A DNA stretch of 28,380 nt from a virus: the IMG/VR virus record IMGVR_UViG_3300045743_000147, positions 1-28,380 of that record; one strand, written 5' to 3'. The position numbers and the translations under genes are program-made. Shown here one piece after another: positions 2,651-27,979 of the stretch; the first letter of the stretch is position 1; the number at the start of each line of letters is the position of its first letter. The notes below the pieces were generated by a model. The model made no database searches and had not been told where the DNA came from. It worked only from the letters and a program-made list of their open reading frames with translations.

Positions 2651-2902
2651 ATGAATGAAAAAATTTTAGAAATTGCTCGTAAATCTGGGTGGTTACATGC
2701 TTGTAAACATGGTGGTGTTGATAGTAACTTAGATGAAGATTGGGAAAAGTTTGCCGTAGATATTATTAAAGAATGTTGTAGGATAGTAAATGTGTGGACA
2801 GAAGAAGATGGTTGTACAGAATCTACCGAGGATGTTTTTCAATCTAGGTGTGTTAAAGGATCTTTTGGTTTACCTAAAGATGTATACGGGAATTATCTAT
2901 AA
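2651..2902 (+). CDS. Small phage protein of the MNEKI/EKFA family
   Basis: 83 residues. ATG 2651 follows AGGA at 2641 and gives the typical family opening MNEKILEIARKSGW, preferred over TTG 2645. The middle reads EDWEKFAVDIIKECC, equivalent to the EKFAELIVRECM signature of a small protein family very common in large phages. Paralogs lie at 16083 and 16491. The role is unknown in all members I know of. Confidence 0.75.
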   Translation: MNEKILEIARKSGWLHACKHGGVDSNLDEDWEKFAVDIIKECCRIVNVWTEEDGCTESTEDVFQSRCVKGSFGLPKDVYGNYL

Positions 2903-3043
2903 TGTTAGCTTGGTTATATAAAAAATTGATTGGGACTTTTGTATTATAGAAAAATACCATTTTAAATATTTTGAGTTTTCTAATTCTGTGAATTTTTCTG
3001 AAAATTTAATATCAGGATTTGTATAAATATCTATGCTGGACAT
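2897..3043 (-). pseudogene. N-terminal remnant of a homing endonuclease (antisense)
   Basis: Minus-strand ORF of 48 codons starting at 3043 with a good AAGGA site 6 bases before ATG. Residues 1-37 include FTELENSKYLKWYFSIIQKS. This resembles the N-terminus of phage HNH homing endonucleases, where a KYxKWYF-like segment precedes the HNH core. The core (HHIIP region) is absent; the frame instead runs into the end of the + strand genes. A late-promoter motif on the same strand lies about 80 bases upstream (3130-3123). I infer a decayed free-standing endonuclease gene, inserted opposite to all other genes. Confidence 0.45.
2902..2949 (+). pseudogene. Possible truncated small ORF (15 codons)
   Basis: ATG overlaps the previous TAA (TAATG), giving MLAWLYKKLIGTFVL and a stop. 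The opening resembles the N-terminus of small phage proteins that continue into a zinc-binding domain, so this may be a gene cut short where the minus-strand endonuclease remnant begins. Weak evidence. Confidence 0.3.
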
Positions 3044-3075
3044 GTTGATTCCTTATTAACGTTAGAATGTTTAGT

Positions 3076-3111
3076 GCTTCTGGGGACGGCAATCTCGCGA
3101 GAAGCTTTTTT
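3076..3111 (+). terminator. Rho-independent terminator
   Basis: Stem GCTTCT (3076-3081) with AGAAGC (3100-3105), 18-base loop, then six T. It would end transcripts from the 1-2950 gene block before the promoter at 3142. On the minus strand the same hairpin sits in the leader of the antisense remnant. Confidence 0.6.
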
Positions 3112-3135
3112 GTTGCTATTAGTATTTATATAAAT
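3109..3135. repeat. 27-bp intergenic repeat, copy A
   Basis: Begins TTTGTTGCTATTAGTA and ends just before a TTGACA -35. Copies B (26865) and C (27919) differ by no more than one base over 27. Each carries TATTTATA, the reverse complement of the late-promoter motif. Confidence 0.85.
3123..3130 (-). promoter_or_regulatory. Antisense late-promoter motif, copy A
   Basis: Read on the minus strand this is TATAAATACT, an exact match to the T4 late promoter core with the following CT. It points toward the antisense endonuclease remnant at 3043-2897. Confidence 0.5.
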
Positions 3136-3141
3136 TAAAAC

Positions 3142-3169
3142 TTGACAAAATGCAAAATTGGGGTATAAT
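3142..3169 (+). promoter_or_regulatory. Sigma70-type early promoter
   Basis: TTGACA (3142-3147), 16-base spacer, TATAAT (3164-3169). It drives the DUF6915-like gene. Because ATG 3150 and ATG 3168 lie inside the promoter, neither can be the translation start. Confidence 0.85.
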
Positions 3170-3203
3170 GACACCATCATTTAAACTTTATGAGGAGAAA
3201 TTT

Positions 3204-3881
3204 ATCAAGGCGTATTTACATTCAAAAATCCACGCTAAAGCTTACAAAGGAAATAGTGACGATTATATCGATATTGATAATTTTATTGATTCATCTAAAC
3301 AAGCAGTGGCTGATGTGCGCCACAGGGCTATTCTACACTCGGCATTTGGGTGTTTTATTGTGGAGCAAGTGTTTGGTATTACTAGAATCAATTCGGACGG
3401 TAAAACGTATTCTCCTAGAGATATAGCAGAAGATCACATTCAACAAGACCTAAATGCAATATTTTCGGTAGACAAATATTTAAATAATATTAAATTGTTG
3501 GATATGCCGAAGATTAAAAATATATCAATTTTAGAACATGCAGAAATAGATTCCAAAGTTTTTGGTGTGTCTGAAGATTCTATATTACCTATTCATCATT
3601 GGATGGAAAGCGCATTCCAAACTATGCCTGATAATAGACATAATGTAATATTACATCATGCCTTTGGTATCATTATAGCAGAAAAGGTATTTGGTTTATA
3701 TTTAGAAACTGATGATAAAAAAGTATTAGTATCTGATATAATAAAAAATCATATTACTAGGGAATTTGGATATATTCCTACAATGAATGATTTTTTGCAA
3801 CTAATGAAAATTCAAGATTGGATGTCAGGTACTGCAAAGCATCATAGAGCAAAAGTGGGATTTATCCCTTTGGTAGATTAA
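3204..3881 (+). CDS. Tandem DUF6915-like protein, apparent ATC start
   Basis: The frame is open from 3150 but the promoter covers the ATGs at 3150 and 3168. The best start is ATC 3204: it follows GAGGAGAAATTT with the same spacing as the ATG at 12702 (AGGAGAAATTTATG). Read as Met it gives MKAYLHSKIHAK, close to the opening of DUF6915 proteins. The 225 residues contain two copies of one domain, each with a DxRHxxxLHxAFGxxxxExVFG core (about residues 39-62 and 153-176). Both copies end with a conserved region (RDIAEDHIQQDL, SDIIKNHITREF). Function unknown. Family assignment is from motif memory. Confidence 0.75.
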   Translation: MKAYLHSKIHAKAYKGNSDDYIDIDNFIDSSKQAVADVRHRAILHSAFGCFIVEQVFGITRINSDGKTYSPRDIAEDHIQQDLNAIFSVDKYLNNIKLLDMPKIKNISILEHAEIDSKVFGVSEDSILPIHHWMESAFQTMPDNRHNVILHHAFGIIIAEKVFGLYLETDDKKVLVSDIIKNHITREFGYIPTMNDFLQLMKIQDWMSGTAKHHRAKVGFIPLVD

Positions 3882-11707: not shown

Positions 11708-11992
11708 ATGGCTTTAACACGAGATACACACGGGTTTGCGATGAAATCTACTAACGCAGTTATTAATGGAGTTCAAACGCCTATCTTTAAAGATCCTAAA
11801 ACTGATAATGGTACTAAGAAATCTGCTAAGGGTTTATTGATGGTAACACAAGACGTTAATGGCTATCATTTAGAGGATATGGTTGATACTAAGGCAGAAC
11901 AAAGGGGTTGTTTGGAAACTGTATTTAAAGATGGTGTGTTGATTAAAACAACTACATTAGCTGAAATCAGAGAAATCACTTCTAGGATTTAA
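11708..11992 (+). CDS. nadV: Nicotinamide phosphoribosyltransferase, C-terminal fragment
   Basis: 94 residues. Apart from the first three (MAL) it reads as NAMPT C-terminus: TRDTHGFAMKSTNAVINGV, FKDPKTDNGTKKSAKG, and the end KAEQRGCLETVFKDGVLIKTTTLAEIREI. In human NAMPT the Arg of the equivalent LTRD binds substrate phosphate, so the break lies between two parts of the active site. It has its own GAGGA site seven bases before ATG, which suggests it is made as a separate chain that could assemble with the N-terminal fragment. I infer a split but possibly functional enzyme. Confidence 0.88.
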   Translation: MALTRDTHGFAMKSTNAVINGVQTPIFKDPKTDNGTKKSAKGLLMVTQDVNGYHLEDMVDTKAEQRGCLETVFKDGVLIKTTTLAEIREITSRI

Positions 11993-11993
11993 T

Positions 11994-12608
11994 ATGGATT
12001 GGAAAGATTATGTTGGGTATCAAGAGATAAGTCTTGATACCACAGAAGATAATTTAAATGTATTTTATCTTCAATTTAAAAGTAGCGGTTTTTCTGATAT
12101 GTCTAGATTATGTTTGGAAATAACTAAGATTCTGCTTGATATATCAGATTTTAGATATGATGAAGATGAACTCAAAGATGCAATTGTAGAGATTTTATGT
12201 GATTTCCCATACTTTACTATGGATAAGTTTGAGGGTAATGATAGATATAAGTGGAAATTTGGTTTTGGTAATTATTGTAAATTCACAAAAACTGGTGAAC
12301 TTATTAGAGTTAATCGATTAAAAGTTTTACCATATATAACAAAAGTAGATTTATTAGGACAGTTTTATCATTTTCAAAAAAATAAACTTAAAAATAAAAT
12401 TGCTTTAAATACTAGAAGAGGTCAGGGTAATACAACATATATTACAAACATTAAAGACTATGGATTTAATGTCTATGCAGAACATATTTTTTATAAAGGA
12501 AACACCGCATATGATTGTCCAATTATGGTTATACGATATGGTGAAAAATATGCAATATTTAAACATCCTAAATTTGAATCTTATGGATTTATTATGGATT
12601 TTGGATAA
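11994..12608 (+). CDS. Hypothetical protein, 204 aa
   Basis: One of the larger unknowns. Starts one base after the NAMPT fragment, so it belongs to the same operon. Rich in Tyr, Phe, Lys and Asp; a basic patch KNKLKNKIALNTRRGQG at about residues 130-146 could bind nucleic acid. No motif I can name. Confidence 0.7.
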   Translation: MDWKDYVGYQEISLDTTEDNLNVFYLQFKSSGFSDMSRLCLEITKILLDISDFRYDEDELKDAIVEILCDFPYFTMDKFEGNDRYKWKFGFGNYCKFTKTGELIRVNRLKVLPYITKVDLLGQFYHFQKNKLKNKIALNTRRGQGNTTYITNIKDYGFNVYAEHIFYKGNTAYDCPIMVIRYGEKYAIFKHPKFESYGFIMDFG

Positions 12609-12613
12609 AGAGC

Positions 12614-12641
12614 TTGACTTAATATTCTAAACTGCTATACT
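12614..12641 (+). promoter_or_regulatory. Early promoter
   Basis: AGCTTGACT with TTGACT at 12614, 16-base spacer, TATACT. Confidence 0.8.
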
Positions 12642-12651
12642 AGCTTCACTG

Positions 12652-12684
12652 AAACCGATTAGGGAATGGTTCTTTAATCGGTTT
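12652..12684 (+). terminator. Leader hairpin/attenuator-like stem-loop
   Basis: AAACCGATTA (12652-12661) pairs with TAATCGGTTT (12675-12684), perfect 10 bp, 13-base loop, followed by a T-rich run. It lies in the 5' leader, a few bases after the expected transcript start and before the ribosome site. It could attenuate or stabilise the mRNA. Confidence 0.55.
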
Positions 12685-12701
12685 TTATTTAGGAGAAATT
12701 T

Positions 12702-13253
12702 ATGAATATATTTTATTTGTCGAATAATGCAACTGAATGTGCAAGATTACACGTAGATTGCCATGTTGTAAAAATGATTTTGGAAACAGCACAATTACTG
12801 TCTACTGCACACCGAGTACTTGATGGTGTAGAATATATTGATAATTCATCTGGAAGAAATATTAAACGATGGAGACTTAATAATTCATATGAGGATCATT
12901 TATATAAAGTTTCTCATGTGAATCACCCAAGTGCTATTTGGGTTAGAAAATCGTATGATAATTATATCTGGTTACATTCATTGTTGGTTGAATTGTGTAA
13001 AGAATATTCTTATCGATATGGAAAAATACATAAAGTAGAATTTTCTGGATTAATGAAAAAATTGGAATATGCGCCATTTAATATAAGACCAGGAATATTC
13101 ACAGAACCAACACCAGCTATGCCACCAGAATTCATTGTAGAAAATGATTCTATACAATCATATAGAAATTATTATAGAGGATCTAAACAACATTTACATA
13201 GTTGGAAAAATAGAGAAATTCCAGATTTTATTTTTGAAAAGAGCTTGACCTAA
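12702..13253 (+). CDS. Conserved phage protein with HxDxHVVKM motif
   Basis: 183 residues. Motifs in order: CARLHVDCHVVKMILETAQLLSTAHRV (about 13-39), HVNHPSAIWVRKS (about 72-84), YRYGKIHKVE (about 106-115), AMPPEFI and YRNYYRGSK. I recognise this order from a widely distributed phage family, usually unnamed and sometimes annotated as pyrimidine-dimer glycosylase-like without good support. The conserved His and Asp/Glu suggest an enzyme, possibly a metal-dependent one. Perfect AGGAG site. The stop is joined to the next promoter's -35. Confidence 0.75.
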   Translation: MNIFYLSNNATECARLHVDCHVVKMILETAQLLSTAHRVLDGVEYIDNSSGRNIKRWRLNNSYEDHLYKVSHVNHPSAIWVRKSYDNYIWLHSLLVELCKEYSYRYGKIHKVEFSGLMKKLEYAPFNIRPGIFTEPTPAMPPEFIVENDSIQSYRNYYRGSKQHLHSWKNREIPDFIFEKSLT

Positions 13254-13272
13254 TTTTCTATTATGTTATACT
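13245..13272 (+). promoter_or_regulatory. Early promoter overlapping the previous stop
   Basis: TTGACC, 16-base spacer, TATACT. The last codons of the 12702 gene (AGC TTG ACC TAA) form the -35. Downstream it shares TCACTGAAAC with the 12614 promoter. Confidence 0.8.
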
Positions 13273-13304
13273 AATATCACTGAAACAACTTTAGGATTTT
13301 AATT

Positions 13305-13484
13305 ATGATTTATTTATTATTGATTATGACCTTTTCTGGTCAAATGGAAACCGTTCATTATCAAACTGAAGCAGCTTGCGAATCAGCATTGATGGAAAGG
13401 GTGGACGGGGCTAGAATGAAAGATATTCAAGTTGCTGAATGTATTGATACAATGTCATTAAATGTGAAGAGATTTGTAAAATGA
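13305..13484 (+). CDS. Small protein with N-terminal hydrophobic segment, 59 aa
   Basis: MIYLLLIMTFSG opening looks like a short signal or anchor; two Cys (in EAACESAL and AECID) follow, which could form a disulfide if exported. AGGA precedes ATG, and the stop overlaps the next ATG (ATGA). Function unknown. Confidence 0.6.
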   Translation: MIYLLLIMTFSGQMETVHYQTEAACESALMERVDGARMKDIQVAECIDTMSLNVKRFVK

Positions 13485-13663
13485 ATGGTGAGAACGAATT
13501 AATAACTAAAGGTCAAGCTTTAGCTGCTATGAAGAAGTGGTTTTATGAATCTTTTGATGATGATTTATTAGATCGTATGGAAAAACATGCTTTGATAGCT
13601 CAAGCTGAAGGGTTTTCTATGTCGTTATTAGCAGAAATGGAAATTGAATTAGAGGATATTTAA
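13481..13663 (+). CDS. Small acidic protein, 60 aa
   Basis: Helical, acidic product (FDDDLLDRMEKHALIAQAEGFSMSLLAEMEIELEDI). ATGA overlap with the upstream gene. No recognised family. Confidence 0.65.
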   Translation: MNGENELITKGQALAAMKKWFYESFDDDLLDRMEKHALIAQAEGFSMSLLAEMEIELEDI

Positions 13664-13664
13664 A

Positions 13665-13961
13665 ATGAAACTCAGAGAACTGTTTGATAAAGGTAATACA
13701 TCTTTTAAATTAACAATAACACCAACAAGAATTACAATAAAATTACAAAAAGATATTTCTATGGAATTAAAACTTAGAGTTCTTTATTTTTTTGAAAATA
13801 TAGTAAAAGAGGATTCTATGGTTAATTGTGTTCAATCTTATAGAGGCTCTTTTAAATTACCAAAGGCTGATTTTATACCTTGGCAAATACAAATGAAAAC
13901 CAATAGTCCAAATACTAAAAATACTATAACATTTAAGGAATTAGATTATGCAACTAAGTAA
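13665..13961 (+). CDS. Hypothetical protein, 98 aa
   Basis: Alternating beta-rich start (SFKLTITPTRITIKLQKD), then a helix and a Lys/Thr-rich end. It overlaps the RNA ligase start by 14 bases, so it may be translationally coupled to it. Function unknown. Confidence 0.65.
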   Translation: MKLRELFDKGNTSFKLTITPTRITIKLQKDISMELKLRVLYFFENIVKEDSMVNCVQSYRGSFKLPKADFIPWQIQMKTNSPNTKNTITFKELDYATK

Positions 13962-15018
13962 AATGCCATCTATAGGCCAATATAGAAATGTTATTAAACA
14001 AGTATGTGATCAATCACAATTCATTGGATTAGATGATGATGGTGTAGCGATTTTTGATAGAACTCTGAAAGCTCCGGTATTAACTTTTACTGGAACTGTA
14101 AAATTGCATGGAACTTGTGCCAGTATTGGTTTCAATTTAAAACAACCAACAGATTATTGGTGCCAATCTAAAGAGAGTATTATTGAAGTTGGTAAAGATA
14201 ATGCTGGATTTGCGGCTTATGTCCATTTTCATAAAAAAGAATATGAATCTATTTTAATTAATATACGTGCGCTATTATATCACAATCTCGGAAATTATGA
14301 TCAATTTACTGATGCTGTAATTTACGGAGAATGGTGTGGATCAAGTATTCAAAAGGGTGTTGGTATTAATGGTTTACCAAAAATGTTTGTAGTATTTGGT
14401 ATTAAGTTAATATCCAAAAATCAAGATGATTCCGCTAATGTTTGGGTATCTGATCAATTATTAAAAGATATTATTACAAATAATCCAGAGATTAATTTAT
14501 ACAATATCTTTACTTTTGGTGAATGGTCTATTGACATTGATTTTAGTCAACCAGAACAGAGCCAAAACAAAATCATTGAACTTACTCTAGCAGTAGAAAA
14601 TGAATGTCCATGTGCTAAATATTTTGGTATTGAAAATGGTGTAGGAGAAGGTTTAGTATTTAAACACGATTCAGAAAAGTATGGTACTTTACGATATAAA
14701 TCCAAGGGGTTGAAGCACTCAGTTTCTAAGGTTAAAACACTAGCTCCAGTTGATATTGAACGAGTAAACAGCATTGCTGACTTAGTAGATGTTATTTTAA
14801 CAGAAAATAGACTTCAACAAGGTCTTGAACATTTGCGCTTGAATCATTTGGAACTTGATCAAAAAAACACTGGTTCTTTTATTAAGTGGATTGCTAATGA
14901 TGTTATAAAAGAGGAAGTTGATCAGATTTTAGGAAATAATTTAGATATTCCTGAAGTTTTGAAAGTGGTTTCAAAGAAGTCAAAAGAATGGTTTTTTACC
15001 CAAATATTTTCGGTGTAA
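13948..15018 (+). CDS. RNA ligase (ATP-dependent, Rnl2-like)
   Basis: 356 residues, ATG 13948 after AAGGA. Nucleotidyltransferase motifs in order: motif I KLHGTCASI with the adenylated Lys52; AVIYGEWCGSSIQKGV (about 130-145) as motif III; FVVFGIKL as IIIa; GEGLVFKH (about 232-239) as IV; and LRYKSKG (about 248-254) as V. This is the RNA-ligase type of the T4 Rnl2/kinetoplastid editing-ligase group, which seals 3'-OH/5'-phosphate RNA nicks. Phages use such enzymes to reverse host RNA cleavage. The C-terminal 100 residues are helical and lineage-specific. The nucleotidyltransferase at 17751 may be functionally linked, but no kinase-phosphatase is seen in the window. Confidence 0.88.
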   Translation: MQLSKMPSIGQYRNVIKQVCDQSQFIGLDDDGVAIFDRTLKAPVLTFTGTVKLHGTCASIGFNLKQPTDYWCQSKESIIEVGKDNAGFAAYVHFHKKEYESILINIRALLYHNLGNYDQFTDAVIYGEWCGSSIQKGVGINGLPKMFVVFGIKLISKNQDDSANVWVSDQLLKDIITNNPEINLYNIFTFGEWSIDIDFSQPEQSQNKIIELTLAVENECPCAKYFGIENGVGEGLVFKHDSEKYGTLRYKSKGLKHSVSKVKTLAPVDIERVNSIADLVDVILTENRLQQGLEHLRLNHLELDQKNTGSFIKWIANDVIKEEVDQILGNNLDIPEVLKVVSKKSKEWFFTQIFSV

Positions 15019-15021
15019 ATT

Positions 15022-15336
15022 ATGGCTAATGCTAAAGAAGAATTGATAGAATTTTTAAATGACCGAGATCTTATCTTGAAATGTGCATCTATTTCATACG
15101 ATAGATATTATATAGATAAAGCAATAGATTTTTCGTTAAAAGTTGGGTATTCTGATAATGAAGTACAAAAATTTTTAGATTCATTGGATTTTGAGTATGA
15201 TTCTGGATATGGTTCACAAGAATTGTTCGGTTTATTATGGTTTACAGATGATTCTTGGGCTGATAGAAGAGAGTATGATGGTAAAGAATGGTATGAACAT
15301 CATTATTGTCCAGAAATTCCTGCGGATTTATTATGA
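15022..15336 (+). CDS. Conserved phage hypothetical protein (GYGSQELFG motif)
   Basis: 104 residues. The second half carries SGYGSQELFGLLWFTDDSWADRREYDGKEWYEHHYCPEIP, a block I recognise from many phage genomes (GYGxQELFGxxW, SDRxEYDGxEWWxHHxxPxIP). Acidic and aromatic. No function is known. ATGA overlap with the next gene. Confidence 0.8.
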   Translation: MANAKEELIEFLNDRDLILKCASISYDRYYIDKAIDFSLKVGYSDNEVQKFLDSLDFEYDSGYGSQELFGLLWFTDDSWADRREYDGKEWYEHHYCPEIPADLL

Positions 15337-15536
15337 AAGATAGAAAATACAGAATTGTTACATCTATGTTTTTTAGTACTAATGAGGTATTTAGTATTGA
15401 ATATCTTGACTCAAATAATGTTTGGTCAGTTTTAGAAAGACATACATGGTATGAAACTGAACAGGAAGCTAGAGAGGCAATAAAAAAGTATCAAAAATTT
15501 GATAAATATGTTCCAAGAATAATTGATGTTGATTAA
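15333..15536 (+). CDS. Small protein, 67 aa
   Basis: ATG 15333 overlaps the upstream stop; the TTG at 15306 is less likely. It has a beta-strand start and then WYETEQEAREAIKKYQKF, a helix with the same ET-x-EEA style as the frameshifted gene at 4519. No named family. Confidence 0.65.
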   Translation: MKDRKYRIVTSMFFSTNEVFSIEYLDSNNVWSVLERHTWYETEQEAREAIKKYQKFDKYVPRIIDVD

Positions 15537-15537
15537 T

Positions 15538-15708
15538 ATGAAAGATAGCAAAAGTGATATAAGATTTATTTTAGGGTTCCCCTTTGGCTTAATAGCGGAA
15601 ACATTTGCTAGATTAGCCATATGGGTTAGTAGTAATCAGTTGACGGTGAATTTCGATTATTTAATTAAAGAAAGAGCTTTACACAAAAGACATAATGATG
15701 TACAATAA
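15538..15708 (+). CDS. Small membrane-associated protein, 56 aa
   Basis: ATG 15538 right after the previous TAA. Hydrophobic stretch at about residues 9-37 (FILGFPFGLIAETFARLAIWV), then a basic C-terminus. Possibly an inner-membrane peptide. Confidence 0.55.
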   Translation: MKDSKSDIRFILGFPFGLIAETFARLAIWVSSNQLTVNFDYLIKERALHKRHNDVQ

Positions 15709-15735
15709 GTCTTGATTTAATTAATAGGGGATAAT

Positions 15736-16086
15736 ATGTTACCAGTTAGAATATATTTTGGAAGAAATCCACATTGGCATAATCAATATGAGATTGATCG
15801 GTGGTTTAATTGTATATTAGAAAATCATAACTATAACTACCAAGAAGCTGTTGATCGTATAATTACTAAAATATTTAATCTTGAAGTTAATCCTAGTAGA
15901 TCTGCATATACTACAAACCCATTAATTTTAAATTTTTTTGATGATGAATTTGCTAAGAATAATGTATGGTTTATTGATGATGAAGGTAATCATATACAGA
16001 TGGGTGATGATCGTGAAATGTTATACTCATTAAAGTGGTATAGTATTGGTGAAGCATTATGTAATAATTATAGGGTATTGCCTTGA
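15736..16086 (+). CDS. Hypothetical protein, 116 aa
   Basis: ATG after TAGGGGATAAT. Aromatic N-terminus (RIYFGRNPHWHNQYEIDRWF) and mixed alpha/beta composition. TTGA overlap to the next gene. No recognised family. Confidence 0.65.
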   Translation: MLPVRIYFGRNPHWHNQYEIDRWFNCILENHNYNYQEAVDRIITKIFNLEVNPSRSAYTTNPLILNFFDDEFAKNNVWFIDDEGNHIQMGDDREMLYSLKWYSIGEALCNNYRVLP

Positions 16087-16313
16087 ATGAAAAATTAGTA
16101 ATTTTAGCAAAACAATCAGGATTTTGTCTTGATGGTGGTGTTAATGAAACCCAATATGGGACTTGCGTAGAAACTGCATTAGGTTATTTTGCAGAGAAAC
16201 TTATTAAAGAAACACTTAAACAAGCACAAATTACTTGGCTTAAGGATAATTCTACATTTCCTACCGCACACTCAGATTTAGTGTTAGACTATTTTGGAAT
16301 TAAACATGAATGA
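16083..16313 (+). CDS. MNEKI/EKFA-family protein, TTG start
   Basis: TTG 16083 gives the family opening MNEKLVILAKQSGF; the ATG two codons on is out of frame. The TTGA overlap with the upstream stop supports coupling. It has FAEKLIKETL (family EKFAELIVREC), then DLVLDYFGIKHE, the typical C-terminal HFGI block. Paralog of 2651 and 16491; unknown role. Confidence 0.75.
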   Translation: MNEKLVILAKQSGFCLDGGVNETQYGTCVETALGYFAEKLIKETLKQAQITWLKDNSTFPTAHSDLVLDYFGIKHE

Positions 16314-16494
16314 AATTTATATTGTAACAGTCACAGATATGACATCTGGTGGTATCCACGAAGTAAATGCATTTGATAATGAAGAAGTAGCATTAGAGTA
16401 TTATAAATATTTAAGATCTTTATCAATATATCCAGAAACAATTTATAATATCATCTATAGTATATCTGAATTAAATAAGGATTATAGAAGATGA
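16306..16494 (+). CDS. Small protein, 62 aa
   Basis: ATG 16306 within the end of the previous gene; TTG 16294 is an alternative. MNEIYIVTVTDMTSGGIHEVNAFDNEEVALEYYKYL looks like a small beta-alpha phage protein in which a strand is followed by an acidic helix. ATGA overlap downstream. It carries TATAAATA at 16402-16409, likely by chance. Confidence 0.65.
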   Translation: MNEIYIVTVTDMTSGGIHEVNAFDNEEVALEYYKYLRSLSIYPETIYNIIYSISELNKDYRR

Positions 16495-16703
16495 ATACTA
16501 ATATAGAACAGCTTTCAGATCACTTTGTTACAGTTGGCAATAATTACAATTATATTGATTATGAGTATATTGAAGATTATACTAAAGCGGTTATTATAGA
16601 AACTCTTAAATTGATAGAGTTATCTCATAAATTAGAAGATGATACATTTGACAAAATACATTCAGATACGGTATTATATCATTTTGGAATTAAACATGAC
16701 TAG
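16491..16703 (+). CDS. EKFA-family paralog, 70 aa
   Basis: Diverged N-terminus (MNTNIEQLSDHFV), then YTKAVIIETLKLIEL and DTVLYHFGIKHD. The C-terminal block is nearly the same as in the 16083 gene, with 19 identical bases at the 3' ends. Function unknown; suggests recent local duplication and divergence. Confidence 0.7.
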   Translation: MNTNIEQLSDHFVTVGNNYNYIDYEYIEDYTKAVIIETLKLIELSHKLEDDTFDKIHSDTVLYHFGIKHD

Positions 16704-16824
16704 AGAAGATGCATTGCGTAGAGGTGAAACAAAAATATATTGGCTTGATGTGTTAATTGGTGTAGAATTAGCATTAGCTGGTGTGTTGTTATACGTGTAT
16801 ATATTTACAGATTTGAGATTTTGA
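16696..16824 (+). CDS. Single-helix membrane peptide, 42 aa
   Basis: ATG 16696 overlaps the previous stop by 8 bases. Polar start (MTREDALRRGETK), then a transmembrane segment at about 18-39. The longer start at 16639 lies inside the previous gene and is less likely. Confidence 0.55.
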   Translation: MTREDALRRGETKIYWLDVLIGVELALAGVLLYVYIFTDLRF

Positions 16825-17015
16825 TGAAATATAGCGACCTATTAAATTGTCCATTCTGTGGTTATGATATAACAAAAAATGATCCATTGGATACTGTATA
16901 CCCATCAAATAGTCATATGACATTGTGGCAAGTAGTATGTTGTGAATGTAGTGCTACAGTATTTGGTGTAACTAAAAAACATGCAATGGAAAACTGGAAT
17001 AGGAGAGTTTTATAA
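16824..17015 (+). CDS. Lar-like zinc-ribbon protein
   Basis: 63 residues. LNCPFCGYDI (CPFCG), CCECSATVFGVTKKHAMENWNRR: the CPFCG...CxxC...A...WNRR order is that of the Lar family of restriction-alleviation proteins, known from lambda/Rac prophage Lar, which modulates type I restriction, and from many phage relatives whose role is untested. ATG 16824 overlaps the previous TGA. It likely binds one zinc. Confidence 0.75.
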   Translation: MKYSDLLNCPFCGYDITKNDPLDTVYPSNSHMTLWQVVCCECSATVFGVTKKHAMENWNRRVL

Positions 17016-17245
17016 TGAAAAATAAAGAATTAATTGAATTATTACTAACCTTAGACCCAGAATTGGAAGTTTGTGTATTTCATGATATTGGTGCTATGTT
17101 AGCAGATTATGTGTGTGTTTATCGAGGTTTATATGAAGACCCTGACAATGAGAAATGTATATTCAAGCGAATAGAAGGTAAATTTAGTGGAATCGGAAAT
17201 CCATCTGACTTTGATGATGATAACAATAACTATGAGATTTTATAA
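17015..17245 (+). CDS. Conserved small phage protein, 76 aa
   Basis: TAATG overlap with the Lar-like gene. Opening MKNKELIELLLTLDPELEVCV matches the 'LxxELxxLDPDxEV' start of a small family common in phages (roles unknown); acidic end (DFDDDNNNYEIL). Confidence 0.7.
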   Translation: MKNKELIELLLTLDPELEVCVFHDIGAMLADYVCVYRGLYEDPDNEKCIFKRIEGKFSGIGNPSDFDDDNNNYEIL

Positions 17246-17424
17246 TGAAAATAACAATTGATACAGATGATATAAAAGGATTCATTAGTACTCTAGGTTC
17301 TTATTGCGATGAATGGTATGGTCCTGTAGATTATATGACTTTATCTTGTATAACAGATCTTTTAGAGTTTTTGGCAAAGAAGAAAGCTTTAGAAGAATTA
17401 GTAGAATATAAAAATACTTTATGA
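17245..17424 (+). CDS. Small acidic protein, 59 aa
   Basis: TAATG overlap upstream, not in longer-ORF lists because of its length. MKITIDTDDIKGFISTLGSYCDEWYGP then a helical tail (LLEFLAKKKALEELVEYKN). Function unknown. Confidence 0.6.
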   Translation: MKITIDTDDIKGFISTLGSYCDEWYGPVDYMTLSCITDLLEFLAKKKALEELVEYKNTL

Positions 17425-17437
17425 GAGAAACTCATCA

Positions 17438-17758
17438 ATGAAAAATACAATAACAAGATATCATCATAGTTTTATAGGATTTTTAGAAATGAATAATCAA
17501 GGAAACTGGTGTGAAATTCCAGAAGTTGAAGATATTATTGATAAACAAGATTTTTTGATTAAACAACTAGAAATTAATTTGCGTTTTGAGAAACGTTGGA
17601 GAGAATCACTCCAAGAAAGTAATGATACATATAAAGATTTATATCTGGATACAATAGTTAAACTTCAGAATGTTAGAGGACGTATTTCAACTACTATTAC
17701 TGTGCTATCCGTTTTGTCTATTGGCGCAATTTTAACTTATGCGATTACTCATGCTTAA
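17438..17758 (+). CDS. Hypothetical protein with C-terminal membrane anchor, 106 aa
   Basis: Coiled-coil-like middle (DKQDFLIKQLEINLRFEKRWRESLQES) and a hydrophobic C-terminus (ISTTITVLSVLSIGAILTYAI at about 83-103), the layout of a tail-anchored protein. Weak GAGAG site. Unknown function. Confidence 0.65.
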   Translation: MKNTITRYHHSFIGFLEMNNQGNWCEIPEVEDIIDKQDFLIKQLEINLRFEKRWRESLQESNDTYKDLYLDTIVKLQNVRGRISTTITVLSVLSIGAILTYAITHA

Positions 17759-18323
17759 ATTTTCATATAACAAACTAAAAAAATCCAGATTTAGATATTT
17801 GGAAAAGGATTTATTGACTCTATGTAATAATGATGTTTGGTTAGCTGGTGGTGCTATCAGAAGCATTAAAGATAATAAACCACCAAATGATTATGATTTC
17901 TTTTTTCGAAATGCAATTGTAGCAGGAGAAACTAAAGAGAAAATAATAGACTTGGGATACAATGTAGTTTTTGTGTGTCCAGTAGGATCGTTGATAACAC
18001 TCATGAAAGATAAGGTTAAGGTACAATTAATATTATCCAGATTTTATTTATCGTGTGAGGATTGTATTAATACTTTTGATTTTACTGTGACTTGTGCAGG
18101 ATTCGATGGTGAATTTATCTACCTACATGATAAATACTTAAGAGATCTAAAAAAACTATATTTGAGAATAAATATTCTTCAATTCCCTAGTAGTACAGTG
18201 AACCGTCTAATAAAGTATAAGAAATATGGGTATTCAACTGCGGATTGTATTGTTGATATTATGACCTTGACGTATAATCAAGATCCTAATATACAGGACA
18301 TTTCTTTTCTATATATGGATTAG
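17751..18323 (+). CDS. Nucleotidyltransferase, polyA-polymerase/CCA-adding head-like
   Basis: 190 residues; ATG 17751 overlaps the previous gene by 8 bases (17739 is an alternative). The motif WLAGGAIRSIKDNKPPNDYDFFF (about 30-52) is the GG...DxD signature of class II nucleotidyltransferases (tRNA CCA-adding enzyme, polyA polymerase), with Asp47 and Asp49 as metal ligands. A third strand carrying TFDFTVTCAGFDG (about 104-116) follows. The usual neck/body domains are missing, so it is a minimal head domain. Phage copies could modify tRNA or RNA 3' ends; related folds also occur in toxin-antitoxin nucleotidyltransferases. Specific activity unknown. Confidence 0.8.
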   Translation: MLKFSYNKLKKSRFRYLEKDLLTLCNNDVWLAGGAIRSIKDNKPPNDYDFFFRNAIVAGETKEKIIDLGYNVVFVCPVGSLITLMKDKVKVQLILSRFYLSCEDCINTFDFTVTCAGFDGEFIYLHDKYLRDLKKLYLRINILQFPSSTVNRLIKYKKYGYSTADCIVDIMTLTYNQDPNIQDISFLYMD

Positions 18324-18326
18324 TAA

Positions 18327-18488
18327 ATGATATTATTAAGATGTAAAAGAGTAACTAGAGGTATCAGGTTACATCATACTAGACCACCTATGTGTTGGTT
18401 TCCGGTATATAGATTTAAAACTAGACATTCTGCATTCCATAGTTATATTTTTAGACTTAGAAATGCAGAATTTGTTAAATATATGTAG
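18327..18488 (+). CDS. Small basic protein, 53 aa
   Basis: Arg/His-rich (MILLRCKRVTRGIRLHHTRPPMCWFPVYRFKTRHSAF), net strongly positive, three bases after the previous stop. Possibly nucleic-acid binding. Not a known family. Confidence 0.5.
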   Translation: MILLRCKRVTRGIRLHHTRPPMCWFPVYRFKTRHSAFHSYIFRLRNAEFVKYM

Positions 18489-18499
18489 GAGAATGACTA

Positions 18500-18757
18500 A
18501 TGATTATTTTTATGGAATATAGAACAAAAGGTATATCTAAACGTCAAATGGTGTTAAACTCTCTTAATCCTAATTTTAGAGGAAATACAGTTAGGAGATT
18601 TAATGTTGATTCTAATGCTATTGGAACAGAAGATTTAAATGAAGTAGCAAGACAAGCTGCTATAGACATTCCTGGAGAAGATTGGGAACTCCATAAAGTT
18701 TTTACTATAGAACCAAAACAAGAATTTTTTATTGAATATAAGGAACTAACATGTTAG
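18500..18757 (+). CDS. Hypothetical protein, 85 aa
   Basis: GGAG eight bases before ATG. MEYRTKGISKRQMVLNSL then an acidic region (EDLNEVARQAAIDIPGEDWELHKVF). Mixed alpha/beta, unknown. Its end overlaps the next start. Confidence 0.65.
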   Translation: MIIFMEYRTKGISKRQMVLNSLNPNFRGNTVRRFNVDSNAIGTEDLNEVARQAAIDIPGEDWELHKVFTIEPKQEFFIEYKELTC

Positions 18758-18891
18758 CATATGGATCAAAGAGAACTCTAGGAAATTGTATAACTTCTAA
18801 ATATAGAAAAGGTGCTAAAATCAAAATTAAAGAGTGTATTAAAAACAAAAAATATGGTAGAATTATCAATTTAAATGAGGAACTAATATGA
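18751..18891 (+). CDS. Small Lys-rich protein, 46 aa
   Basis: ATG overlaps the upstream stop by 7 bases; ATGA at the end. Lys/Ile-rich (YRKGAKIKIKECIKNKKYGRIINL), strongly basic, possibly nucleic-acid binding. No family. Confidence 0.5.
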   Translation: MLAYGSKRTLGNCITSKYRKGAKIKIKECIKNKKYGRIINLNEELI

Positions 18892-22812: not shown

Positions 22813-22820
22813 TATAAATA
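22813..22820 (+). promoter_or_regulatory. Late-promoter motif before a hairpin
   Basis: TATAAATACT on the + strand, the same core as in the 27-bp repeats but in the other orientation. The expected start (about 6 bases past the motif) falls inside the first arm of the hairpin that follows. Confidence 0.5.
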
Positions 22821-22821
22821 C

Positions 22822-22877
22822 TTATGTGGCTAGGAAATCGAGTCCGAAAATCCCTTTAGTAAGGATCTGCCACATAA
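22822..22877 (+). ncRNA. Candidate structured leader RNA
   Basis: Perfect 9-bp stem TTATGTGGC (22822-22830) with GCCACATAA (22869-22877). The 38-base interior can form GGA/TCC (22833-22845 region) and TCC(C)TT/AAGGA (22851-22865 region) helices, giving a three-way junction. It lies between ligase and an endonuclease remnant. A tRNA, hammerhead or other named RNA was not matched. Confidence 0.5.
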
Positions 22878-22915
22878 CTCAATACTAGGATTCTATACTA
22901 AAAGGATTTGTTCAT

Positions 22916-23071
22916 ATGACAAGAAAGGTCTATACCACAGAAAATTTTATTGAAAAGTCTAATTTAGTTCATAATAATAAATATGATTATTCAAAAACTA
23001 TAATTATAAACTCAACATTAAAAGTAAAAATGGAAATAGTGAACTATTCATCAAAGATGTATTGGGATTAG
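22916..23071 (+). pseudogene. DUF723-type homing endonuclease N-terminal remnant
   Basis: 51 codons, AAAGGA upstream. YTTENFIEKSNLVHNNKYDYSK and INSTLKVKMEI match the opening of the DUF723-type repeat found in phage homing endonucleases (TxEEFIxKAxxVHGxKYDYSK...YxNxxxKVxIxCxxHG). The expected Cys-Pro-x-His-Gly and nuclease core are missing, so this is a truncated relic. Start codon and ribosome site are intact, so a short peptide could still be made. Confidence 0.7.
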
Positions 23072-26096: not shown

Positions 26097-26681
26097 ATGT
26101 ATTTTTTTGATATTGAAACTCTAGGTATTTCGTCAGAATCTGTAATACTATCAGCAGCAATATTATATGTTGATGTTAATAAACCTAACCACACAATTGA
26201 ATCCTTACGGGATGATACATTATTTGTTAAATTTAAAGTTAAGGAGCAAGTAGAGCAATATAAAAGAACTACTGATAAAAGTACTATTGCTTGGTGGACT
26301 ACTCAATGCGATAATATTAAAAAATTATCATATTATCCATCTAAAGAAGATGTTTCGGTTACTCAAGGCATTACATATCTACGAAATTTTATTAAATCAT
26401 TCAATGTTTACCCAGAAAAAGATTTAATTTGGACTAGAGGTAATTTAGACTCTGTGGTTATGGATTCTTTATGTCGAGCATCTAATGAGTCTTTATTAAT
26501 GCCATATTGGGCATATAGGTGTACCAGAACATTTATATGCACACAAGCAACAATCTCAAATAAAGGGTATTGTGATATAGATTTAAAACAATACCCAACA
26601 TTCGATAGAAATAAATTGACTAAACATTCACCAATAGATGATATAATACTAGATGCCTTAATGGTATTATATAGCGAATAA
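26097..26681 (+). CDS. DEDDh 3'-5' exonuclease (RNase T-like fold)
   Basis: 194 residues. MYFFDIETLG gives motif I (Asp5, Glu7); WTRGNLDSVVM (about 116-126) gives motif II with Asp122; HSPIDDIILDA (about 178-188) gives the His and final Asp of motif III, so the DEDDh class. The layout resembles the DUF5051/Rv2179c-like exoribonuclease family frequent in large phages. It probably trims 3' ends of RNA or short DNA. GGAG precedes ATG, and it is in the operon with the zincin-VWA gene. Confidence 0.85.
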   Translation: MYFFDIETLGISSESVILSAAILYVDVNKPNHTIESLRDDTLFVKFKVKEQVEQYKRTTDKSTIAWWTTQCDNIKKLSYYPSKEDVSVTQGITYLRNFIKSFNVYPEKDLIWTRGNLDSVVMDSLCRASNESLLMPYWAYRCTRTFICTQATISNKGYCDIDLKQYPTFDRNKLTKHSPIDDIILDALMVLYSE

Positions 26682-26683
26682 AT

Positions 26684-26797
26684 TTATTTAGTTTTATATT
26701 TACAATTATCATTGTGCCATCTATTCATATTAAGGATACTAGTAGATTCGAATTTGCAATGTTGGCACTCGATAATTGGATATATTTTTACTGGACA
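26684..26797 (-). pseudogene. Antisense homing endonuclease C-terminal zinc-finger remnant
   Basis: Minus-strand frame of 37 codons after a stop (TAA at 26800-26798), no start codon. It ends ECQHCKFESTSILNMNRWH then NDNCKYKTK, close to the CxHCG...NMxRWHxDNCK ending of phage homing endonucleases (Cys-x2-Cys...His-x4-Cys). It points away from the antisense late motif at 26886. The 5' portion has been lost. The + strand holds no gene in this 277-base gap. Confidence 0.65.
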
Positions 26798-26830
26798 TTA
26801 TTAGTTCGTTTAATAGTAGAAATGTTTAGA

Positions 26831-26867
26831 GCCAATAGATATTTGCGGTATCGTGATTGGCATTTTT
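26831..26867 (+). terminator. Stem-loop followed by T-run
   Basis: GCCAAT (26831-26836) pairs with ATTGGC (26856-26861), 19-base loop, then ATTTTT. Same position relative to repeat B as the terminator at 3076 has to repeat A. Confidence 0.5.
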
Positions 26868-26891
26868 GTTGCTATTAGTATTTATATAAAT
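26865..26891. repeat. 27-bp intergenic repeat, copy B
   Basis: Identical to copy A over 27 bases; the downstream -35 differs slightly. Confidence 0.85.
26879..26886 (-). promoter_or_regulatory. Antisense late-promoter motif, copy B
   Basis: TATAAATACT on the minus strand, pointing at the zinc-finger remnant. Confidence 0.5.
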
Positions 26892-26897
26892 AAAAGC

Positions 26898-26925
26898 TTG
26901 ACTCTATTTAAATATCTGTTATACT
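26898..26925 (+). promoter_or_regulatory. Early promoter of the AAA+ gene
   Basis: AAAGCTTGACT with TTGACT at 26898, 16-base spacer, TATACT inside GTTATACTAAC. Confidence 0.85.
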
Positions 26926-26958: not shown

Positions 26959-27912
26959 ATGAAACCTGAACTAAATATGATGCCAGACACAACTTTTAAA
27001 AGTACTATTCACAACAAAATTATTTCATTGGATTTGGAGAATACCATTAAATTACAACAAAACGATATCCCAGAAATTGATCCAAATTATATTCCATTTG
27101 GTTTTTATAAAGATCTAACTAAAATAGTAAAATCTAATACCTTTTATCCATTGTTAATTACGGGTAGTCATGGTTCAGGTAAAACTAAGATGGTTGAGCA
27201 AGTATGTGCTAATTTAAATAGGAGTTTAATCAGAATAAATATCTCTATAGATACTGATGAAACAGATTTAATTGGTAGCCAAACTTTAGAGGATGGTAAT
27301 ATTAAATTTAAAGATGGTCCTATTCTTACAGCAATGAGAACTGGTTCGATTATGTTATTAGATGAGCTGGATCGAGGTACATCAAAACTATTATCAATAT
27401 TATCAATTCTTGAGGGTAGTCCTTTTTATGTAAAAAAGACTGGTGAAATTGTTCATCCTAAAGAGGGGTTTAATATTATTGCAACCGCAAATACTAAAGG
27501 ATTTGGTGAAGATCCTAAATATTTGGCACAAATTTTAGATACAGCTTTTTTAGAAAGGTTTGGTATTACGGTAGAACAAAAATATCCAGATATTAAAACA
27601 GAAAAGAAAATTCTATCTAAAGTATTAGATGATGAAGAATTTATTGATACTTTGATTAAATGGGCAAATGTTATTCGATTATCATATGAACAGGGTGCGG
27701 TCGATGACTTTATTTCTACAAGAAGATTAATGCATATTGCTAAATCTTTTATTATATTTAATGATAAAAAGAAGGCTGTTGAATTATGTGTATGTAGATT
27801 TGAAGAAGATACAAAATTATCTTTTATGGATCTATATTCAAAAATATCCTCTGGAGAAGATGAAGAAGAATTTCTCGAACCATCCGTTGCGGAAATGGAA
27901 AATATCTGGTAA
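26959..27912 (+). CDS. AAA+ ATPase, CobS/MoxR-like
   Basis: 317 residues. Walker A GSHGSGKT (69-76), Walker B IMLLDELDRG (131-140), sensor 1 IIATANTKG (about 173-181), and FLERF (197-201) with the expected arginine-finger position. Preceded by an N-terminal segment and followed by an acidic C-terminal tail. Family: MoxR/CobS, ring ATPases that work with VWA-domain partners; the neighbouring zincin-VWA gene is the likely partner. Similar pairs are annotated as 'porphyrin biosynthesis' in large phages, a name that comes from cobaltochelatase homology and is probably misleading here. Confidence 0.9.
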   Translation: MKPELNMMPDTTFKSTIHNKIISLDLENTIKLQQNDIPEIDPNYIPFGFYKDLTKIVKSNTFYPLLITGSHGSGKTKMVEQVCANLNRSLIRINISIDTDETDLIGSQTLEDGNIKFKDGPILTAMRTGSIMLLDELDRGTSKLLSILSILEGSPFYVKKTGEIVHPKEGFNIIATANTKGFGEDPKYLAQILDTAFLERFGITVEQKYPDIKTEKKILSKVLDDEEFIDTLIKWANVIRLSYEQGAVDDFISTRRLMHIAKSFIIFNDKKKAVELCVCRFEEDTKLSFMDLYSKISSGEDEEEFLEPSVAEMENIW

Positions 27913-27918
27913 CTTAAC

Positions 27919-27945
27919 TTTGTTGCTATTAGTATTTATACAAAT
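27919..27945. repeat. 27-bp intergenic repeat, copy C
   Basis: Differs from copy A by one base (T to C at the ninth base from the end). It starts 7 bases after the AAA+ stop, so no room for an endonuclease gene remains. Confidence 0.85.
27933..27940 (-). promoter_or_regulatory. Antisense late-promoter motif, copy C
   Basis: TATAAATACT on the minus strand, directed into the 3' end of the AAA+ gene; would give antisense RNA to it. Confidence 0.45.
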
Positions 27946-27951
27946 TAAAAC

Positions 27952-27979
27952 TTGACAAATAATAAATTTGATATATAAT
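27952..27979 (+). promoter_or_regulatory. Early promoter of clpX
   Basis: TTGACA, 16-base spacer, TATAAT. Confidence 0.85.

Follow-up and report, generated by a model that had tools for sequence, protein, structure and literature searches.

The DNA fragment of 28,380 bases that makes up the whole of IMG/VR virus record IMGVR_UViG_3300045743_000147 (the window, hereafter) carries a short, nearly identical repeat at three sites, and at each of them a late-promoter core on one strand stands beside an early promoter on the other. What is such a repeat, and why should it recur within one phage genome? The preliminary description of this DNA had offered two answers, the footprints of a mobile cassette or sites where late antisense RNA silences early genes. 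Our analysis favours the first: each repeat is probably the promoter (5') end of a freestanding antisense homing endonuclease gene (HEG) cassette, with a late promoter for the nuclease and an early promoter for the neighbouring gene.

Three copies of a repeat in the window

The 22 identical bases of the repeat (TTTGTTGCTATTAGTATTTATA) occur at exactly three sites in the window (3109, 26865 and 27919, all on the plus strand), a count confined to the fragment that the record holds. Outside these bases copies A, B and C diverge at few positions. With up to three mismatches allowed, 100 dinucleotide shuffles gave no match, and the near-identity reported earlier is thus confirmed. The minus strand of all three copies reads TATAAATACT, the T4 late-promoter core noted in the preliminary description, and the -35 element noted after each copy belongs to a sigma-70-type promoter lying 3' of all three. 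These early promoters are TTGACA-16-TATAAT at 3142 and 27952 (12/12) and TTGACT-16-TATACT at 26898 (10/12). The core TATAAATA alone proves nothing, because it is found in the window at chance frequency (12 observed against 12.2 expected); its position within the repeat is what counts. A loose pattern finds 14 strong promoter-like sites on the plus strand, copies A, B and C included, and the remaining 11 have no late core. The features around the three copies are:

2897-3043, minus strand: nuclease remnant A, a ATGTCCAGC start and then a stretch like a truncated N-terminus of an HNH-type HEG
3065-3107, minus strand: leader hairpin and CTAAACATTC of copy A (outer stem GCTTCT/AGAAGC, one mismatch in the inner stem, 47.6 bits by the covariance model)
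3109-3135: copy A of the repeat, with the late core on the minus strand (TATAAATACT at 3123-3130) back to back with the plus-strand early promoter
3142-3169, plus strand: early promoter after copy A, TTGACA-16-TATAAT, 5' of a DUF6915 gene (open frame 3150-3881)
26684-26770, minus strand: 3' end of nuclease remnant B, in another frame, with a zinc-finger tail (CQHC..NMNRWHNDNCK) that by eye resembles the tails of intact HEGs
26739-26798, minus strand: 5' end of nuclease remnant B, a ATGTCCAGT start and 19 codons
26820-26863, minus strand: leader hairpin and CTAAACATTT of copy B (outer stem GCCAAT/ATTGGC, 54.8 bits by the covariance model)
26865-26891: copy B of the repeat, with the late core on the minus strand at 26879-26886
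26898-26925, plus strand: early promoter after copy B, TTGACT-16-TATACT, 5' of a MoxR-like ATPase gene (26959-27912)
27919-27945: copy C of the repeat, with the late core on the minus strand at 27933-27940 and an early promoter on the plus strand
27952-27979, plus strand: early promoter after copy C, TTGACA-16-TATAAT, 5' of a ClpX-like zinc finger gene (28011 onward, cut by the window end)

The claim that a hairpin and a decayed endonuclease gene adjoin copies A and B is borne out on the minus strand. Remnant A is a 48-codon frame opened by ATGTCCAGC, the middle of which resembles the start of HNH-type HEGs; the likeness is short, with 10 of 15 residues identical to the protein of locus L357 (E 5e-5 for that single comparison) and a second, weaker comparison (E 0.005). 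Remnant B has lost the middle of its gene, and its zinc-finger tail lies 26 bases past the 19-codon ATGTCCAGT frame. Copy C has neither a hairpin leader nor a nuclease remnant, only promoters, and gives no match to the covariance model. On our reading A and B would be cassettes with a decayed nuclease and C a cassette reduced to its promoter pair, although C could be a duplicated promoter instead of a footprint. The genes next to the copies encode a DUF6915 protein (A), a MoxR-like AAA ATPase (B) and a ClpX-like zinc finger protein (C).

The T4-like nature of the fragment rests on its relatives. A 25-kb query from the window has a sole match among named phages, 58 bases that are 88% identical to Lak phage DNA and lie within 22813-23071. 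On the plus strand this region holds a further TATAAATA, after which come a hairpin unlike that of the leader (TTATGTGGC..GCCACATAA) and a 51-aa frame that is truncated; a decayed nuclease with another type of hairpin leader may lie here. Other observations in the window are an internal duplication in the DUF6915 gene after copy A (two DUF6915 stretches in 3150-3881), a family (D2) of five early promoters with a common extended -35 between 9960 and 26939, several of them in the form AAAGAGCTTGAC, and, at 328-667 in the first open frame, a tandem repeat within coding sequence whose steps are 9, 12 and 15 bases long.

An intact cassette inside a split polymerase gene

A scan of 2.9 million viral contigs with the 18-base core of the repeat returned seven stretches, six of which were judged chance. 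The only exact relative of the 22-base block among them, L008, is on a contig from a related phage and has the same context; window copy C equals it over 41 bases, the -35 included. The L008 block lies inside a split polymerase gene, polB. On the strand opposite to polB there follow a late core, a hairpin leader, ATGTCCAGC and an intact nuclease of 406 aa, while the plus strand carries TTGACA-17-TATACT and then an ATG at the next polymerase piece. The flanking plus-strand frames are parts of one PolB (RB69/T4-type gp43), piece 1 reaching residue ~503 and the next beginning at ~528; the second polymerase query was made of its two exons, joined by hand. An early promoter is unexpected in the middle of a polymerase gene, and its -35 half therefore most likely arrived with the insertion. 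The L008 nuclease aligns with other HEGs, and searched alone it has no Pfam or PHROG match at E 0.001.

On the same contig, 2 kb away, a second antisense HEG with the leader splits the same polB earlier, into pieces that match phrog_262 from 1 to 306 and from 303 onward. Both polB pieces downstream of the HEGs have a sigma-70-type promoter and an ATG. The polB frames there are of 329, 220 and 39 aa, the 39-aa frame being an exon before a likely intron. Loci L008, L014 and L280 are one 21-kb contig, and its polB (11878-18820) is host to both antisense HEGs, to a likely intron, placed after NSL(YG), and to a stretch like an intein, in which an HNH-like region is visible by eye.

The split polB block of L008 with its intact antisense nuclease, together with the leader and remnants at A and B, supports the reading of the repeats as footprints of a mobile cassette. 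No close empty-site relatives were found; relatives of the MoxR-like gene were found at 34 loci, all at 53% identity or less. The cassette can be described from its two strands. The minus strand carries a T4-type late core, a structured leader and a ATGTCCAGC nuclease start, and the same 41-base block, read on the plus strand, provides the gene at its far side with an early promoter. From this layout we infer timing, activity and mobility. The nuclease would be made late, when the gp55 system of the phage is active. Early expression of the gene downstream, or of the severed downstream part where a gene is interrupted, would be maintained by the outward early promoter; the phage could then tolerate the insertion and would not easily lose the promoter. 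As the preliminary description proposed, the sequence predicts early and late transcription running back to back from these sites.

A hairpin leader before unrelated nucleases

The leader that adjoins copies A and B consists of a late promoter, a covarying hairpin with two bulged C's, CTAAACATT and CAGC-N6-ATTTAT. The first scan for it demanded TATAAATA; it was repeated with CTAAACATTY-N6-30-ATGTCCAGC, a pattern blind to promoter and hairpin, which gave 78 stretches in viral contigs. With the loci found earlier these made 50 distinct places, the window included, of which 42 were judged genuine and eight were dropped by eye as chance (no hairpin, no nuclease). Forty of the 42, two near-duplicates being left out, were aligned for covariance. 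In these the hairpin has a 6-pair outer stem, a C, an R:Y pair, a C, a 4-5-pair inner stem and a loop. Pairing holds in 96.2% of 426 cells, and all 11 pairs covary, each altered on both sides somewhere, with 142 compensatory cells against 41.8 in shuffles.

Run on 385 of 387 loci (those excluded being the window's own sub-loci) and on the window, the covariance model listed 118 matches; 11 with E above 0.05 were dropped, and the 107 kept represent a family of 65 distinct leaders. Variants include CTAATCATTC and ATGACCAGC, and one 74-kb contig carries eight leaders. A sequence like CAGC-N5-8-ATTTAT is present in 58 of the 65, with six-base spacing in 55 of those 58, and in five leaders CAGC precedes the start codon at an unchanged distance to ATTTAT. 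The MSSxxIY protein start would thus be partly a by-product of a nucleotide signal, because CAGC keeps its distance to ATTTAT irrespective of the start codon.

Rfam gave no match at the leader in five sources at E up to 1, and the model found no leader in ten named T4-like phages. A scan of genome contigs gave 26 pattern matches, none above 16.7 bits by the model and all taken as chance; 12 covariance-model matches from genome contigs were dropped as well. We also judged as chance some 34-base matches of a 221-base element query in T5-like phages (E 0.2, one under an annotated promoter). One leader has a 22-base match to Lak phages, where the rest of the leader is absent, and a relative of the L031 nuclease occurs in a Vibrio phage that has no leader.

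An open reading frame of at least 100 aa lies behind 56 of the 65 leaders. The proteins include GIY-YIG, SegE_GIY-YIG and NUMOD3 matches in Pfam, PHROG homing endonuclease families, HNH-type PHROGs and a restriction-endonuclease-like pair (MTES_1575, below the Pfam cut-off). At L032 (1546-2817) the gene behind the leader, which scores 29 bits (E 2e-4) and has TATAAATA on its 5' side, is a TnpB gene; the TnpB protein matches OrfB_IS605 (E 2e-24) and Cas12f1-like_TNB. Judged by sequence, therefore, the 5' ends of HEGs of unrelated nuclease types carry one leader module. Nucleases of known HEG type, as a freestanding HEG cassette should have, are found in the family, and the window holds remnants only. 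Both neighbours of the HEG are opposite to it in orientation at 29 of the 65 leaders, and both run in its direction at 16 of 65.

Promoter statistics were taken on 36 of the 42 leaders, leaving out the window copies and starts other than ATGTCCAGC; loci from the early-promoter pattern were excluded save L008, L014, L031 and L098, which were found again by the pattern scan. Within 30 nt upstream of the leader, TATAAATA is present in 21 of 36 (0.7 expected from shuffles), [ATG]ATAAATA in 28 (1.4 expected) and TAAATA in 33 (3.6 expected). The divergent -35 GTCAAG lies upstream in five of 36, against 0.2 in shuffles. By a strict pattern a divergent early promoter accompanies only 12 of the 65 leaders, so that in many cases the outward early promoter may belong to the host gene itself. 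Among the matches listed for the early-promoter pattern, T4-like marine loci such as L024, L039, L047, L079 and L112 lack the leader and have, between divergent genes, an early promoter set back to back with a late core.

Sequence and placement of the late core are those of a T4-type late promoter, and the gp55 gene is present in some of the records. The 20 records with leader loci, which are fragmentary, contain gp23 in nine and a gp55 homologue in seven; one of them (L316) came from a chance match and has no leader. In the parts of the literature consulted, NATAAATA is the S-PM2 late consensus (PMC2984593), T4 late sites include an A at -13, and late RNA should begin about one helical turn past the TATA box (PMC2988020).

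The hairpin itself may act in DNA or on both strands, either as a protein-bound single-stranded DNA hairpin or as a bidirectional element that is a leader on one strand and terminator-like on the other. We take this as a serious possibility, though not the likelier one. An RNA acting solely on the HEG strand should favour G-U over A-C. In the stems of 61 distinct leaders 584 of 610 cells are Watson-Crick, seven are G-U and eight A-C, and none of the 366 outer-stem cells is G-U; with G-U no commoner than A-C, a role at the DNA level or on two strands is possible. In 28 of the 42 leaders, those with a clear late core beside a parsed stem, pairs could be counted against the canonical +1: in many, as many as three outer pairs would by prediction fall on its 5' side, and 32 of 34 such pairs are kept. 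By eye a T-run follows the hairpin on the plus strand in A, B and L008, but on the opposite strand only 22 of 42 leaders have five or more T among the eight bases that follow the hairpin, and a terminator scan, whose rules admit short loops only and no bulges, gave nothing at A or B. Palindrome correction by template switching could likewise eliminate G-U. The evidence for a DNA hairpin is a lead only, because the +1 is a position predicted by rule and template switching could keep the palindromes perfect.

Other explanations and known homing endonuclease genes

Could the three copies simply be conserved promoter DNA? In AT-rich T4-like phages an early -35 often has the late core in reverse orientation (TATTTATA) directly 5' of it, and among the matches listed for the early-promoter pattern many marine loci are back to back, with a late gene starting directly on the other strand. 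Ordinary divergent promoters nonetheless account neither for the identity of 22 bases nor for the leader hairpin, the ATGTCCAGC starts and the remains of nucleases beside copies A and B, and they leave unexplained the presence of the same 41 bases within the L008 polymerase gene; we regard this explanation as distinctly unlikely.

Late promoters and hairpins before HEGs are familiar from T4 I-TevI, I-TevII, I-TevIII and segB and from Aeh1 mobE (PMC2988022), and in I-TevI, segB and mobE the hairpin masks the ribosome-binding site. The leader hairpin is predicted to leave this site unhidden. Across the 42 leaders the mean unpaired probability of the ribosome-binding site and start is 0.55 with the hairpin, 0.56 without it and 0.51 in read-through RNA, and five leaders lose more than 0.2 on read-through. 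A masking switch of the I-TevI type is accordingly unsupported and has only a slight chance of applying here. As in our cassettes, promoters of host genes are tied to the HEGs of T4 and Aeh1 (PMC2988022); the covariance model has no match in either phage.

The silencing of early genes by late minus-strand RNA from the repeats, the other proposal of the preliminary description, is unsupported because the late promoters point away from the adjoining early genes. Only upstream genes are within their reach, an exonuclease-like gene (26097-26681) for copy B and the MoxR-like ATPase gene (26959-27912) for copy C, into which the late promoter would run antisense; a side effect on these two genes is conceivable. 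HEG-linked antisense transcription does occur in a T4-like phage, S-PM2, where the antisense RNA CfrI links psbA with a homing endonuclease gene (PMC2984593, in the part consulted); in our case it is a prediction, and S-PM2 has no match to the covariance model. The start codon of the leader and the Shine-Dalgarno-like sequence in 36 of 42 leaders point to translation, and we consider silencing highly improbable. We give almost no credence to the idea that the hairpin is the left end of an IS200/IS605-type transposon with two ends: the hairpin is of variable sequence with extrahelical bases and one member of the family is a TnpB, but the 3' ends of 52 complete genes have no conserved sequence to set beside the conspicuous 5' end, and no transposase was found among the leader genes scanned (56 of 65).

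The antisense HEG cassette has its closest parallel in seg43 of Aeromonas phage 25, likewise a GIY-YIG HEG between the halves 43A and 43B of a T4-type polB, with a hairpin just upstream of the start that, as predicted for our leader, leaves the ribosome-binding site unmasked (PMC2988022). In phage 25 (DQ529280) and L008 the gene is split in the same fingers region, with an intron beside NSLYG. The phage 25 HEG runs in the direction of polB, whereas that of L008 is antisense with an outward early promoter, and the phage 25 hairpin (CGGGGTTA..TAACCCCG), unlike the L008 leader, gives no covariance-model match. T4 segD, between genes 23 and 24, is also antisense to its neighbours, but is described as without a recognised promoter of its own, unlike the leader HEGs (PMC2988022). 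In phage 44RR a noncoding insert splitting gene 43, the IC-UTS, likewise restarts expression of a split polB; it is described as having no HEG, unlike L008 (PMC2988022), and the 44RR record has no covariance-model match. Late promoters with masking hairpins at T4 HEGs, host promoters embedded in HEGs, an antisense segD and a non-masking seg43 hairpin were thus already known, as far as the consulted parts of PMC2988022 cover them. The literature searched, in which coverage is partial, contained no leader common to unrelated HEGs and no antisense HEGs with outward early promoters.

A bolder proposal, which we think unlikely as it stands, is that the leader is a single transferable 5' module, acting at least partly as a DNA hairpin, a common docking end at which GIY-YIG, HNH, restriction-type and TnpB nucleases are exchanged in T4-like phages. 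Antisense within an essential gene, its two-way promoter would re-express the severed half, and phages would tolerate a polymerase made in separately promoted pieces.

That HEGs of T4-like phages borrow or carry promoters was known already. If nucleases of unrelated types have a leader in common, these parasites would be sharing a single module for expression (or exchange), and the strict Watson-Crick pairing of the leader poses the question of whether the hairpin works as RNA or as DNA. With the covariance model as a sequence handle, uncultivated phages can be searched for HEG cassettes and for the footprints that these leave. Reading the repeats as cassette ends explains the recurrence of near-identical promoters within a phage genome, and it leads to the testable idea that antisense HEGs buy tolerance by giving the interrupted gene an early promoter.
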